DNA of 64,000 nucleotides, taken from assembly GCA_030681515.1 (NCBI GenBank), contig JAUXSE010000020.1, forward strand, positions 1 through 64,000, written 5' to 3'. Position numbers and translations under genes: made by a program. The notes under the pieces were generated by a model. It made no database searches. It worked only from the letters and a program-made list of their open reading frames with translations, and was not told the DNA's origin. This document shows, piece after piece, positions 16,989 to 48,464 of this stretch. The stretch is from Geothrix sp. Lineage in GTDB: Bacteria > Acidobacteriota > Holophagae > Holophagales > Holophagaceae. Position 1 is the stretch's first letter. The number at the start of each line of letters is the position of its first letter.

Positions 16989-17972
16989 TCAGGCGGCGCC
17001 CTGGTGCCTCAATGCGTCAATGGCGGCCATGAGGGACTGGGCATCGCTGGCGGCGTGCAGGTTCTGGCGGAAGCCGTGGCCGCCGGGCACGCCCTTGGTG
17101 AACCAGGCGCCGATCTTCTTGATCTTGTGCAGCGCCTCGCGGGGCTCCAGCAGGTCCAGCAGGATCTGGAAGAGCCGCAGCGTGGCGTCTATGCGCATCT
17201 CCGTGGTCACCCCGAATCCGGGATCCAGGATCTGCCGGAAGAGGAAGGGGTTGTAGAGGGCGCCCCGGCCGATCATCACCGCCGCGCAGCCGGTTTCCTC
17301 GACCATGCGGAAGGCGTCGGCGGCCGCGTTCACATCGCCGTTGCCGATGATCGGGTACGAGGTGCCCGCGTCCACGGCCCGGGCGATGATGCTCCAGTCC
17401 GCGTGGCCCTCGTACTGCTGGGCGCGGGTGCGGGGGTGGATGGCCAGGGCCTGCACGCCCGCCGCTTCGAACATATGGAGGAAGTCCAGGAACTCGCCAC
17501 GATCCTTCTGCGTTGCATCCCAGCCCGCGCGCATCTTCACCGTCACCGGCACCTTCACGGCCTTCACCATGGCCGTGACGCAGCGCTCCGCCAGACGGAT
17601 GTCCCGCAGCAGCGCCGACCCCGCGCCACCCTTGGTCACGTTGCTGGCCGGGCAGCCCATGTTCAGGTCCACCAGATCCGCGCCCGCGGCCTCGCACAGC
17701 ACCGCGCCCTCCGCCAGGGCCTCGGGCCGCCCGCCCGATATCTGCATGGACAGCGGCCGCTCCCCCGTGGCCGCCATCATCCGCTCCGCCTTCACCGCAT
17801 GCCGGATCAGCGCCTCGCTGCTGATCATCTCCGACACCGTGAGCCCCACCCCGCCGATCTCCCGGATGAACTTGCGGAAGGGCTGATCGGTGATCTCGTG
17901 CAATGGCGCCATCACGAGGCGATTGGACACCTCAACGGGACCGATGTGGAATGGGGAATGCGGGAAGGTCAC
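16989..17972 (-). CDS. dusB: tRNA-dihydrouridine synthase (DusB-like)
   Basis: 327-residue FMN enzyme that reduces uridines in the tRNA D-loop. Motifs: NRLVMAPLHEITDQPFRKF (about 17-35), the catalytic Cys in DLNMGCPASNVTKGGAG (about 98-114), VTVKMRAGWD, and IGNGDVNAA with MIGRGALYNPFLF near the C-terminal barrel. Length fits DusB. The start is GTG 17970-17972 (MTFPHSPFHIGP). In many proteobacteria dusB pairs with fis; here the upstream side carries an RT cassette and rho instead. Confidence 0.94.
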   Translation of the reverse strand: MTFPHSPFHIGPVEVSNRLVMAPLHEITDQPFRKFIREIGGVGLTVSEMISSEALIRHAVKAERMMAATGERPLSMQISGGRPEALAEGAVLCEAAGADLVDLNMGCPASNVTKGGAGSALLRDIRLAERCVTAMVKAVKVPVTVKMRAGWDATQKDRGEFLDFLHMFEAAGVQALAIHPRTRAQQYEGHADWSIIARAVDAGTSYPIIGNGDVNAAADAFRMVEETGCAAVMIGRGALYNPFLFRQILDPGFGVTTEMRIDATLRLFQILLDLLEPREALHKIKKIGAWFTKGVPGGHGFRQNLHAASDAQSLMAAIDALRHQGAA

Positions 17973-18009: not shown

Positions 18010-18040
18010 CTCTGAATTTGGCCTGCGGCCAAATTCAGAG
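18010..18040. repeat. Perfect 14-bp hairpin, left flank of RT gene
   Basis: CTCTGAATTTGGCC (18010-18023), loop TGC, then the exact reverse complement (18027-18040). It closely resembles the hairpin at 19743-19771 on the other side of the reverse transcriptase gene. There is no T-run, so it is not a classical terminator. A second small hairpin, GGAGGC/GCCTCC, follows at 18045-18060. Confidence 0.85.
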
Positions 18041-18150
18041 GTGGGGAGGCTGGCGCCTCCTAATATGAGGAGAGGATGTTACCTAGGTGTTTTCCCTTCG
18101 GAGAAGGCCATCTCACCACGCGTTAGTACCCAGGCCAATTTCCGAAAATG

Positions 18151-19719
18151 TTAGATGAGCTTTTCAATAGCGCCACTAATACCGTTGGCAAGCTTCCAAT
18201 GCTTGCGTTCGTCGACGCCAAGCTTTCGACTCGCAAAGAGGATTGCAAGCCGCAACAATGGTGAAGCTCCCACATAGTCATCCTTTATGGCAACAGCCTC
18301 AGAACGATTGCCAGATGAATGTAATGCAAGTGCAGCGTGGCGCTTGACTACCTCAGATGTGGACTCGGAATAAAGCGAGACAATATCTCCCGCGTGATTC
18401 CATACAGACCCTGACGCAAAAATATGGAGGATCCACATGGCGTAGTACGGGGGCGGTGGATTTCTCTTGCTCTTAAGTGGACTAAGGAGTTTTGTCGAAA
18501 CCCTTCTCTGTTCGGCGCGTGTCAGGTCTTCAAACGACAAGACATACTTAGCCATTTGTTCGGCTAAAGGATAGAGGAGTTCTGCATTTTCAATAACAAG
18601 ATCAAGGACCTCGCGCTTGAGTGTAGGTGGTGCCCCAGGGATACGTGGAAGCTTCGTGAGGGCGTATACAACGGCTTCGTAGTCGACAAGCGAAGTGTCA
18701 GCAAGAGATGCTTCGAGCATGCCCTTGAGGTCAGTACCTTGGAGCACCGCCAGAGCTTCCTGGACCTCCGATTCGTTGGGTTCGCCTTCTTCTCCATTTT
18801 CGTACCCGATACTAAAATCACGGAACATGTTTACAACAGTGTCACGGTCGGTGAGTTGCTCTTCATGTCGAGACAAGACCTCAATCTTGTACACATCGAT
18901 CGGAAGTATCTTTGTCTTCGCTGACTGAAGAGTCAATCCGTGATTGGAATAGAGCCATTCGCCAAGACCAAAAAGTACGGACTGCGCTTCGTACTCGGAT
19001 TTGCAAAAGATGTTGTAGTCATCGACCCATCGGACAAAGTTGATGCCTTTGCTCTGCAAGGTGGCATCGACATCGATCAGAATGGCTTCGCCGAGCAAAC
19101 GAGATGCATACGGCCCAACAGGAATGCCATAACTGTTTCGTTCCATTAGATTGCCAATGAGCTTTCGTACCAGCACACGTGCAACGTCCCGGACTCGCTG
19201 ACTTGTCGCCACAGTCTCGATGACATTCTCTAATCGATGCTGGTATATGCGTGGATAGAAATCTGCGATATCAGCCATCGCCACGAATTTTACTTGTGCC
19301 GTTTCGGCCTTAGCGTCTAACTGTTGTCGGTAAGCTTCGTATGATCCTTTTGATCCGTAAATTACTTGTGGCTTAGTAATGTCAGCTCTGTAAGAAAATA
19401 CGCGCTTCGCCTTTATCCCTACGCGATTCGCTTCGATATCGTTCTTTGTGATCAGCACCAAGGCCGTATAGAGCAACAAGTCCTGTGGGTGAAGCAGGTG
19501 CACCACCCGAATATTTGCGCGGCTCTTCGGTGCAAACACCTTCATCACTTTGAATGGTTCATAGGTGTCCAAGTCGATCTTTTCTAGGACATTTCTGACA
19601 GCTGGCCAATTGTTGGCTACGACATCCCACTCAGGTGGATCTGGAAGCATCGTGCTATAGCCATGATGAGCTATGGCAGCGAATGCATTGTCGAGTTCAA
19701 CACCTGTCAACGTAAACAC
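18151..19719 (-). CDS. Reverse transcriptase, UG/Abi (defence-associated) type
   Basis: 522-residue protein from GTG 19717-19719 (GAGG Shine-Dalgarno 8 bases upstream). RT blocks are visible: PKSRANIRVVHLLHPQD (residues 64-80), catalytic block A AMADIADFYPRIY (147-159, Asp150), block B SYGIPVGPYASRLLGE (196-211), catalytic FVRWVDDYNIF (228-238, VDD in place of YADD) and GLTLQSAKTKIL (261-272). There is no maturase, endonuclease or group II intron signature. The C-terminal about 240 residues are alpha-helical and HEAT-like (VVKRHAALALHSSG), the architecture of AbiA/AbiK and several UG reverse transcriptases involved in phage defence. The gene is visibly AT-richer than rho and dusB on either side and is bracketed by related hairpins. 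The defence role is inferred from the family. Confidence 0.85.
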   Translation of the reverse strand: MFTLTGVELDNAFAAIAHHGYSTMLPDPPEWDVVANNWPAVRNVLEKIDLDTYEPFKVMKVFAPKSRANIRVVHLLHPQDLLLYTALVLITKNDIEANRVGIKAKRVFSYRADITKPQVIYGSKGSYEAYRQQLDAKAETAQVKFVAMADIADFYPRIYQHRLENVIETVATSQRVRDVARVLVRKLIGNLMERNSYGIPVGPYASRLLGEAILIDVDATLQSKGINFVRWVDDYNIFCKSEYEAQSVLFGLGEWLYSNHGLTLQSAKTKILPIDVYKIEVLSRHEEQLTDRDTVVNMFRDFSIGYENGEEGEPNESEVQEALAVLQGTDLKGMLEASLADTSLVDYEAVVYALTKLPRIPGAPPTLKREVLDLVIENAELLYPLAEQMAKYVLSFEDLTRAEQRRVSTKLLSPLKSKRNPPPPYYAMWILHIFASGSVWNHAGDIVSLYSESTSEVVKRHAALALHSSGNRSEAVAIKDDYVGASPLLRLAILFASRKLGVDERKHWKLANGISGAIEKLI

Positions 19720-19742
19720 GGGGTGAACCTCATTTCGTTTAA

Positions 19743-19771
19743 CTCGGAATTTGGCGCAGCCAAATTCCGAG
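19743..19771. repeat. Perfect 13-bp hairpin, right flank of RT gene
   Basis: CTCGGAATTTGGC (19743-19755), loop GCA, then the exact reverse complement (19759-19771). It differs from the left-flank hairpin by one compensated base pair (T-A against G-C at arm position 4) and one fewer C-G pair next to the loop. It sits between the RT start and the rho stop. By the loop sequence the two copies are in opposite orientation. Confidence 0.85.
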
Positions 19772-19779
19772 CGAAGCCA

Positions 19780-21072
19780 CTACCTACGAGCCGGCGGCTC
19801 CTGCAGGTTCGCCAAAAACTCATCGTTCGTCTTCGATTTCCCCAGCCGGTCCAGGAGCAGCTCCATGCTTTCGCTGGGGCCGCTGGCGCTGAGGATCTTG
19901 CGGAGCACCCAGATCTTGGCGAGCTTGGCGGCATCGATGAGCAGGTCTTCCTTGCGGGTGCCGGATTTCTGGATGTCCATGGACGGGAAGATGCGCTTGT
20001 CGCTGAGCTTGCGATCGAGCACGATCTCGCTGTTGCCGGTGCCCTTGAATTCCTCGAAGATCACGTCGTCCATGCGGCTGCCGGTCTCGATGAGGGCCGT
20101 GGCGATGATGGTGAGGCTGCCACCGGCTTCGATGTTGCGGGCCGCGCCGAAGAAGCGCTTCGGCCTTTGCAGCGCATTGGAGTCCACGCCGCCGCTGAGC
20201 ACCTTGCCGCTGGGGGGTACCACGGTGTTGTAGGCCCGGCCCAGGCGGGTGATGGAATCCAGCAGGATCACCACGTCCTTCTTGTGCTCCACGAGACGCT
20301 TGGCCTTCTCTATGACCATCTCGGCCACCTGGACGTGGCGGGTGGCGGGCTCGTCGAAGGTGCTGGACACCACCTCGCCCTTCACGCTGCGCTCCATGTC
20401 GGTGACTTCCTCGGGCCGCTCGTCGATGAGCAGCACGATGAGGAAGACCTCCGGGTGGTTGGCGGTGATGGAATTGGCGATGTTCTGCAGCAGCACGGTC
20501 TTGCCGGTGCGCGGCGGGGCCACGATGAGCGCCCGCTGGCCCTTGCCCAGCGGCGTCATCAGGTCCATGACGCGGGTGCTCAGCTCCTGGGGATCCCGTT
20601 CCATGCGCAGGTGATGCTTGGGGTAGAGGGGCACCAGGTCGTCGAAATGCACCCGTTCCTTCGCGTTTTCCGGTGGGTCGAAGTTCACGGCATCCACCCG
20701 CAGCATGGCGAAGAACTTTTCGCCCTCCTTGGGTGCGCGGATCATGCCGGACAGCGTATCGCCGGTGCGCAGGTTGAACTTGCGGATCTGGCTGGGCGAG
20801 ATGTAGATGTCCTCGGGCCCGGCGAGGTAGTTCTGATCGGGGCTGCGCAGGAAGCCGAAACCCTCCGGCAGCACCTCCAGCACGCCCTCGGAGAAGAACT
20901 GCCCTTCGGCCTCGGCCTGGGCCTGGAGCACCCGGAACACCAGCTCCTGCTTGCGCATGGCCAGCGGATTCTCGATCTCCAGATCCTTCGACAGTTCGGC
21001 GAGCTTGCCGATGGAGAGTTCCTTGAGCGCTTGCAGGCTCAGGACGGTCGGGGGCTGAGAAGGGGTGGCCAT
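19780..21072 (-). CDS. rho: Transcription termination factor Rho
   Basis: 430-residue hexameric RNA helicase. An N-terminal Rho-N helical domain (about 10-50) precedes an S1/CSD-like RNA-binding domain ([23 protein letters not shown], about 69-91). The ATPase core has Walker A APPRTGKT (about 182-189), Walker [18 protein letters not shown] and the Q/R-loop region [20 protein letters not shown]. Length is normal. A GAGG Shine-Dalgarno precedes the ATG at 21072. Confidence 0.98.
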
Positions 21073-25469: not shown

Positions 25470-25511
25470 CTCCAAAACGAAGGGCGCCGCTTGGCGCCCT
25501 TCGTTTTGGAG
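25470..25511. terminator. Bidirectional terminator, 19-bp perfect stem
   Basis: Arms 25470-25488 and 25493-25511 are exact reverse complements around loop GCTT. The stem has GGGCGCC at the loop and AAAACG/CGTTTT at the base, so it gives a T-tract on both strands. It lies between the convergent helicase and PBP1A genes and can terminate both. Confidence 0.9.
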
Positions 25512-48386: not shown

Positions 48387-48418
48387 GGGATCTCCAGAAT
48401 CGCTTTCAATCCTAGACG

Positions 48419-48450
48419 AAAAAAGCGGGGGCGATCGCCCCCGCTTTTTT
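48419..48450 (-). terminator. Terminator between pal and cpoB
   Basis: A perfect dyad: A6, then GCGGGGGCGATCGCCCCCGC, then T6. It has no separate loop, so the innermost pairs would open to form a 4-base loop. It can terminate on both strands and would separate pal from cpoB transcripts, at least in part. Confidence 0.85.
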
Positions 48451-48464
48451 CGCGCTGGAAATGT

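Follow-up and report, generated by a model that had tools for sequence, protein, structure and literature searches.

The Class 1 DRT reverse transcriptases (RTs) studied so far use no nucleic acid template, and an alphaRep domain is typical of them (PMC13174585). DRT4, a single-gene system, makes random ssDNA (PMC13213688). DRT8 has been described with a PD-(D/E)XK domain (PMC12596737), and is one of a small number of DRT types for which the mechanism has yet to be resolved (PMC13213688, PMC13314766). The stretch of Geothrix sp. DNA analysed here, 64,000 nucleotides in length and referred to as the window, contains an RT gene located between two host genes, rho upstream and a dusB-like gene downstream (Table 1). 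Its product is a Class 1 UG/Abi-type enzyme. We assign a probability of roughly 0.7 to the reading that it is a stand-alone Class 1 UG/Abi abortive-infection polymerase, which would produce DNA without an RNA template and would have been acquired horizontally between rho and dusB.

Table 1. Positions in the window of the RT gene, its neighbours and the flanking elements
Feature	Position	Strand	Description
dusB-like gene	16989..17972	(-)	tRNA dihydrouridine synthase, host gene, downstream neighbour of the RT gene; Pfam Dus
dusB-proximal hairpin	18010-18040		14-bp perfect stem; part of the ancestral rho-dusB spacer of the host
Short region 3' of the RT gene	18041..18150	(-)	without attC; fold z -0.74, not significant
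RT gene	18151..19719	(-)	522 aa; helices at the N-terminus, followed by an RT palm reaching about residue 290 and by an alpha-repeat C-terminus made entirely of helices at about residues 290-522 (predicted)
rho-proximal hairpin	19743-19771		13-bp perfect stem; ancestral host feature just past the rho stop codon
rho	19780..21072	(-)	host gene, upstream neighbour of the RT gene; Pfam Rho

The RT, its predicted structure and its family

The RT open reading frame starts with a GTG codon preceded by GAGG, and its homologues begin at the same residue as the 522-residue protein. Pfam analysis reports an RVT_1 match (1.2e-10), the palm motifs being DIADFY and RWVDDY. The catalytic residues D150, D233, D234 and K268 are intact and do not vary among the 23 rows of an alignment, which bears out the sequence-only reading of a 522-residue RT with an intact active site. 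The AT-richer island between dusB and rho reported by the same reading is confirmed as well, with the RT gene at a GC content of 0.488 and the remainder of the window at 0.666, and a GC3 of 0.505 versus 0.90-0.92 in rho and dusB. The distance from the rho stop codon to the RT start is 60 nt, about half of which is filled by the host hairpin. At the other extremity, the 3' flank ends with a GGAGGC/GCCTCC hairpin that is also present in congeners.

The AlphaFold model calculated with 23 alignment rows has a pLDDT of 91.7 and a pTM of 0.89, while an earlier model with 11 rows exhibited a poor RT domain (pLDDT 62.6). Residues 316-521 of the model are all helical. VIA-align analysis of the model reports matches with DRT6 (Z 23.1, 452 residues, rmsd 4.0), DRT4 (Z 20.8, 447 residues, rmsd 4.3), the UG15 crystal structure (Z 18.3, 447 residues, rmsd 4.5), AbiK (Z 17.8, 453 residues, rmsd 4.0) and Abi-P2 (Z 17.6, 409 residues, rmsd 5.1), and all five alignments extend to RT residue 522, in agreement with the helical C-terminus noted earlier. 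Group II intron and DGR RTs return similar Z scores, but mainly over the RT half of the model; the viral fold library returned RT-domain matches only, and no chain labelled DRT8 was listed in the solved-structure searches. As in Class 1 UG/Abi enzymes, the predicted layout is an RT followed by an alphaRep domain. DRT4 (UG15) and DRT6 (UG12) are, like the window RT, single-gene systems and match its full-length fold with Z scores of 20-23, although they share 14-17% identity with it over the structural alignments. AbiK and Abi-P2, both Class 1 abortive infection polymerases, also match over the full length (Z 17-18) despite 12-17% identity. No position of the RT could be mapped to the AbiK priming residue Y44; tyrosines that do not vary within the clade of the RT include Y21, Y53, Y84, Y159, Y425 and Y426. 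The ncRNA-templated Class 2 enzymes DRT2 and DRT9 share the RT fold, but they match the window RT mainly over the RT domain, and an ncRNA was not detected for the latter.

Among PADLOC families, Drt8 is the best match (E=1.5e-123, 411 bits, residues 8-510), UG20 comes second (1.2e-45), and Drt4 is about 320 bits weaker than Drt8. From the PADLOC order, we take UG7 to be DRT8. No NCBIfam equivalog, the group II maturase and retron models included, scores over its cutoff. A group II intron RT, an affiliation that the sequence-only reading had named as one that would refute it, is rejected, the maturase model TIGR04416 reaching 66 bits versus a cutoff of 300 and the group II-like rows being separate from the RT clade in the trees. 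The Drt8 profile, the trees and the fold matches with DRT6, DRT4, AbiK and Abi-P2 all agree with the earlier view of a UG/Abi-type RT akin to the DRT and Abi defence RTs, and place it in Class 1.

The clade of the RT and its genomic surroundings

Relatives were sought in 84,980 species genomes and in IMG/VR. Ten of them match RT residues 1-522 with 58-90% identity (mean column identity 74%). Five of the ten come from a same-genus acidobacterial MAG, a MAG labelled Rhizobium, Rugamonas, Luteimonas and an Escarpia endosymbiont, and the other five from a viral contig and from MAGs of two cyanobacteria, a deltaproteobacterium and a member of the Nitrospirae. IMG/VR contributed one clade member (L061), the phage collection returned one weak match, and the plasmid search yielded just relatives of 21-34% identity among the matches listed. 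Together with its ten relatives the window RT forms an 11-member clade, hereafter the solo clade, with a support of 100/99 in the RT-domain tree and 99/99 in the full-length tree. The latter places it as sister to five other Drt8 proteins (82/89), whereas the RT-domain tree leaves this order open. Judged by these trees, the window RT is a member of a clade that is sister to, and not inside, the compared Drt8 proteins. It resembles DRT8 in having Drt8 as its best full-length profile and in the RT plus helical layout common to both, but identity between the solo clade and the compared Drt8 proteins is 25-27%. Moreover, the window RT exhibits an N-terminal HHGYS motif and RWVDDYNIF where the compared Drt8 proteins have D and mostly RYxDD, and it is devoid of their short C-terminal extension.

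A further difference from DRT8 is the lack of a PD-(D/E)XK partner. In G140, a genome of the same phylum that served as positive control, the RTasPDDEXK gene is located directly downstream of the drt8 gene. In contrast, the RTasPDDEXK family has no match anywhere in ten solo-clade genomes, that of the window included. Since the solo clade is separate and well supported, this absence looks like a rule of the clade and not like a single loss. The family is also absent from G263 and from the congener G037, whose Drt8 proteins belong to the other group (that of G037, encoded elsewhere in its genome, is 26% identical to the window RT), and therefore the partner is not universal in the other Drt8 group either. 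In G263 (L102:5717-8386), the drt8 gene adjoins, instead of a PD-(D/E)XK partner, a gene for a 332-residue protein that weakly matches nucleoside deoxyribosyltransferase and 8xMP.

The surroundings of the relatives are varied. The RT gene adjoins GajA/GajB (Gabija) in L057 and an SIR2-nSTAND protein gene in L060, and lies near a PDC-S06-like ATPase gene in L054. In L053, the nearest relative outside the genus, its neighbours are a tyrosine integrase gene and one for a phage replication gene A protein. In L055 (Luteimonas terrae), five attC-like repeats stand at cassette spacing, with the RT gene between two of them, and within this cassette array (L055:4171-8515) a TIR effector (PDC-S35) and the RT are neighbouring cassettes; no integron integrase scored over cutoff in this genome. 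In L059, sites of the GCATAAC...GTTATG type frame the RT gene, and integron integrases score over cutoff in the same genome. These attC readings in L055 and L059 rest on the repeats and on reading of the sequence, the strict attC pattern script returning 0 hits in both. The RT is horizontally mobile in other hosts, so that the mobility proposed by the sequence-only reading is borne out for the relatives, by the integrase neighbour and the integron attC-like sites. In the genome of the window, the RT gene stands alone between housekeeping genes, outside any defence island.

The rho-dusB spacer and its hairpins

Distribution of the RT gene is patchy (2 of 47 genus genomes). Between the window and the other RT-bearing congener, G010 (L052), DNA identity is 84.4% for the RT gene, 88.3% for rho and 87.5% for dusB, and the sequence from the rho-side hairpin to the RT start is alike in both. 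This similarity is consistent with an insertion before the two species separated. A single inherited insertion with later losses cannot be distinguished from movement of the entire spot between species, because the two RT-bearing congeners do not group together in the rho tree, yet the deep forks of this tree are weak. The other open reading frames found in the spacer of congeners, named by eye from their translations and not by profile search, resemble genes for a methyltransferase, for MgsA, for an alcohol dehydrogenase, for sensor kinases or for small membrane proteins. This mixture points to a variable spot and not to a defence island, and rho-dusB as a defence hotspot is rejected on this ground. 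Variable open reading frames occur at L027, L031, L033, L035, L037, L065-L067 and L070; those of L067 are AT-rich and form a pair for small membrane-like proteins. Elsewhere in the genome of the window, an integron (G000:C11:1-7420, L117) comprises an integrase (458 bits, cutoff 265) and ten 126-nt attC-like repeats, 87-95% alike and spaced by 436-813 nt; its cassettes are mostly without a Pfam match, except for one weak BrnT and one DUF4440. No attC-like sequence was found near the RT gene in the window or in L052, and none resembling the attC of this integron at the window RT gene.

The perfect, nearly identical hairpins that the sequence-only reading reported on both sides of the RT gene are genuine and above chance. 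Their stem motif occurs 4 times versus 0.4 expected, and the window has 4 perfect stems of at least 12 bp, whereas five Markov shuffles contained 0; the two flanking hairpins are the only ones with this stem found across the 3.2-Mb genome. They had been placed immediately outside the gene and in inverse orientation: outside they are, but the lower one lies 110 nt from the RT stop codon, and orientation means little for palindromes. The gap between rho and dusB measures about 200-255 nt in many RT-less congeners, and a good part of these possess the two hairpins in matching order, the first right after the rho stop codon and the second before dusB. In the congener G004 the two hairpins frame another open reading frame (MgsA-like, by eye), and no such hairpins were found beside the distant RT relatives. 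Across species, 97.8% of the cells are paired in the dusB-side hairpin, with 13 double-sided changes, and 95.1% in the rho-side hairpin, with 12, and 0 of 500 shuffles equalled either hairpin in paired percentage or in covariation score; the sequences were picked out of the gaps by eye, a choice biased towards good pairs. The terminator scan calls neither hairpin. As they occupy orthologous sites in RT-less congeners and are absent beside distant RTs, the hairpins are old host parts of the spacer, without visible link to the RT, between which the RT gene was inserted. The concern that they might be common in the genome and unlinked to the RT proved half right: they are not common, but no link is apparent. 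Striking matched hairpins beside a gene can hence be plain host features. In much of the genus (L024, L029, L036, L043-L045) the covarying pair persists in the rho-dusB spacer, whatever the cargo, and two further long perfect hairpins occur in the window at 25470-25511 and 48417-48452, with stems of 19 and 16 bp, respectively.

Proposed function and alternatives

From its fold and family, the RT is most likely an anti-phage enzyme. Acquired horizontally, it would have settled in the variable spot between rho and dusB. It may form an oligomer via its alpha-repeat C-terminus, possibly a hexamer as DRT4, DRT6 and AbiK do. In the uninfected cell the RT would be inactive, or its product turned over; phage infection would then trigger DNA synthesis without an external RNA template, possibly by protein priming, and the accumulating DNA would block phage growth, probably at a cost to the cell. 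As the clade is about 26% identical to the compared Drt8 proteins, its trigger and product may differ from theirs.

Two alternatives involve the hairpins. In the mobile unit proposed by the sequence-only reading, they would be the ends of an element comprising the RT gene, as their near-identity on both sides and their uniqueness in the genome could suggest. This is extremely improbable, given that the same hairpins frame the short spacer of RT-less congeners and another open reading frame in G004, that their stems vary among species with compensatory changes, and that distant RTs have none. A DRT templated by RNA, like DRT2, DRT9 and DRT10, with its template encoded in or next to the gene, might employ these structured, covarying elements, but their occurrence without RT in congeners and absence beside the other RTs of the clade argue against them being RNA parts used by the enzyme. 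The distance of just 60 nt from the rho stop codon to the RT start, about half of it host hairpin, likewise speaks against such a template, as do the Class 1 fold and family. The search for a template ncRNA by flank comparison and a synonymous-site scan detected none in 11 sequences, among which a fast-evolving RNA could be missed: convincing alignments of the flanks of the clade RTs are limited to two pairs, that of the congeners and that of the cyanobacteria, and fourfold-site identity is flat, at about 0.30, along the RT gene, indicating no synonymous-site constraint. Rfam returned 0 matches in the window, and folding of the 3' flank gave no improvement over shuffled sequences. With flanks unconserved outside very close pairs and no constraint at synonymous sites, a cis-encoded template RNA appears unlikely, and an RNA-templated system as a whole very improbable.

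The remaining alternatives concern the partner, the role and the entry route. A true two-gene DRT8 that lost its PD-(D/E)XK nuclease, or keeps it elsewhere, would agree with Drt8 being the closest family and with the gene order in G140; it is improbable, as the nuclease family is unmatched in the own genome and nine other genomes of a separate, well-supported clade, where its absence looks like the rule. We give similarly little credence to the RT being a housekeeping or degenerate enzyme that plays no part in defence: the solitary position between core genes would suit it, but not the patchy distribution, the intact catalytic residues, the 0.49 GC in a 0.67 GC window, the high conservation across phyla and the defence neighbours of the relatives. 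Entry into the chromosome as an integron cassette that then lost its attC, a route compatible with the proposed function, is brought to mind by the relatives in L055 and L059 and by the integron of the own genome; it seems rather unlikely, because neither the window nor L052 has an attC-like sequence near the RT gene, and L053 has a tyrosine integrase neighbour instead.

Returning to the stand-alone polymerase, it is possible, though we propose this tentatively, that the solo clade represents a separate DRT type, hitherto undescribed, which consists of one protein spread over several phyla on integrons and integrase islands, with its own DNA product (random, homopolymer or patterned) and with neither an RNA template nor the DRT8 nuclease. 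Such a compact, comparable, single-gene sister clade of DRT8, partly borne by integrons, would offer a simple route to the DNA product of this branch, and could help explain why some members need a nuclease. Another gene arrangement is seen on an Aminobacter plasmid (L110:5001-8686), where the gene for a Drt8 protein is directly followed by a second RT gene.
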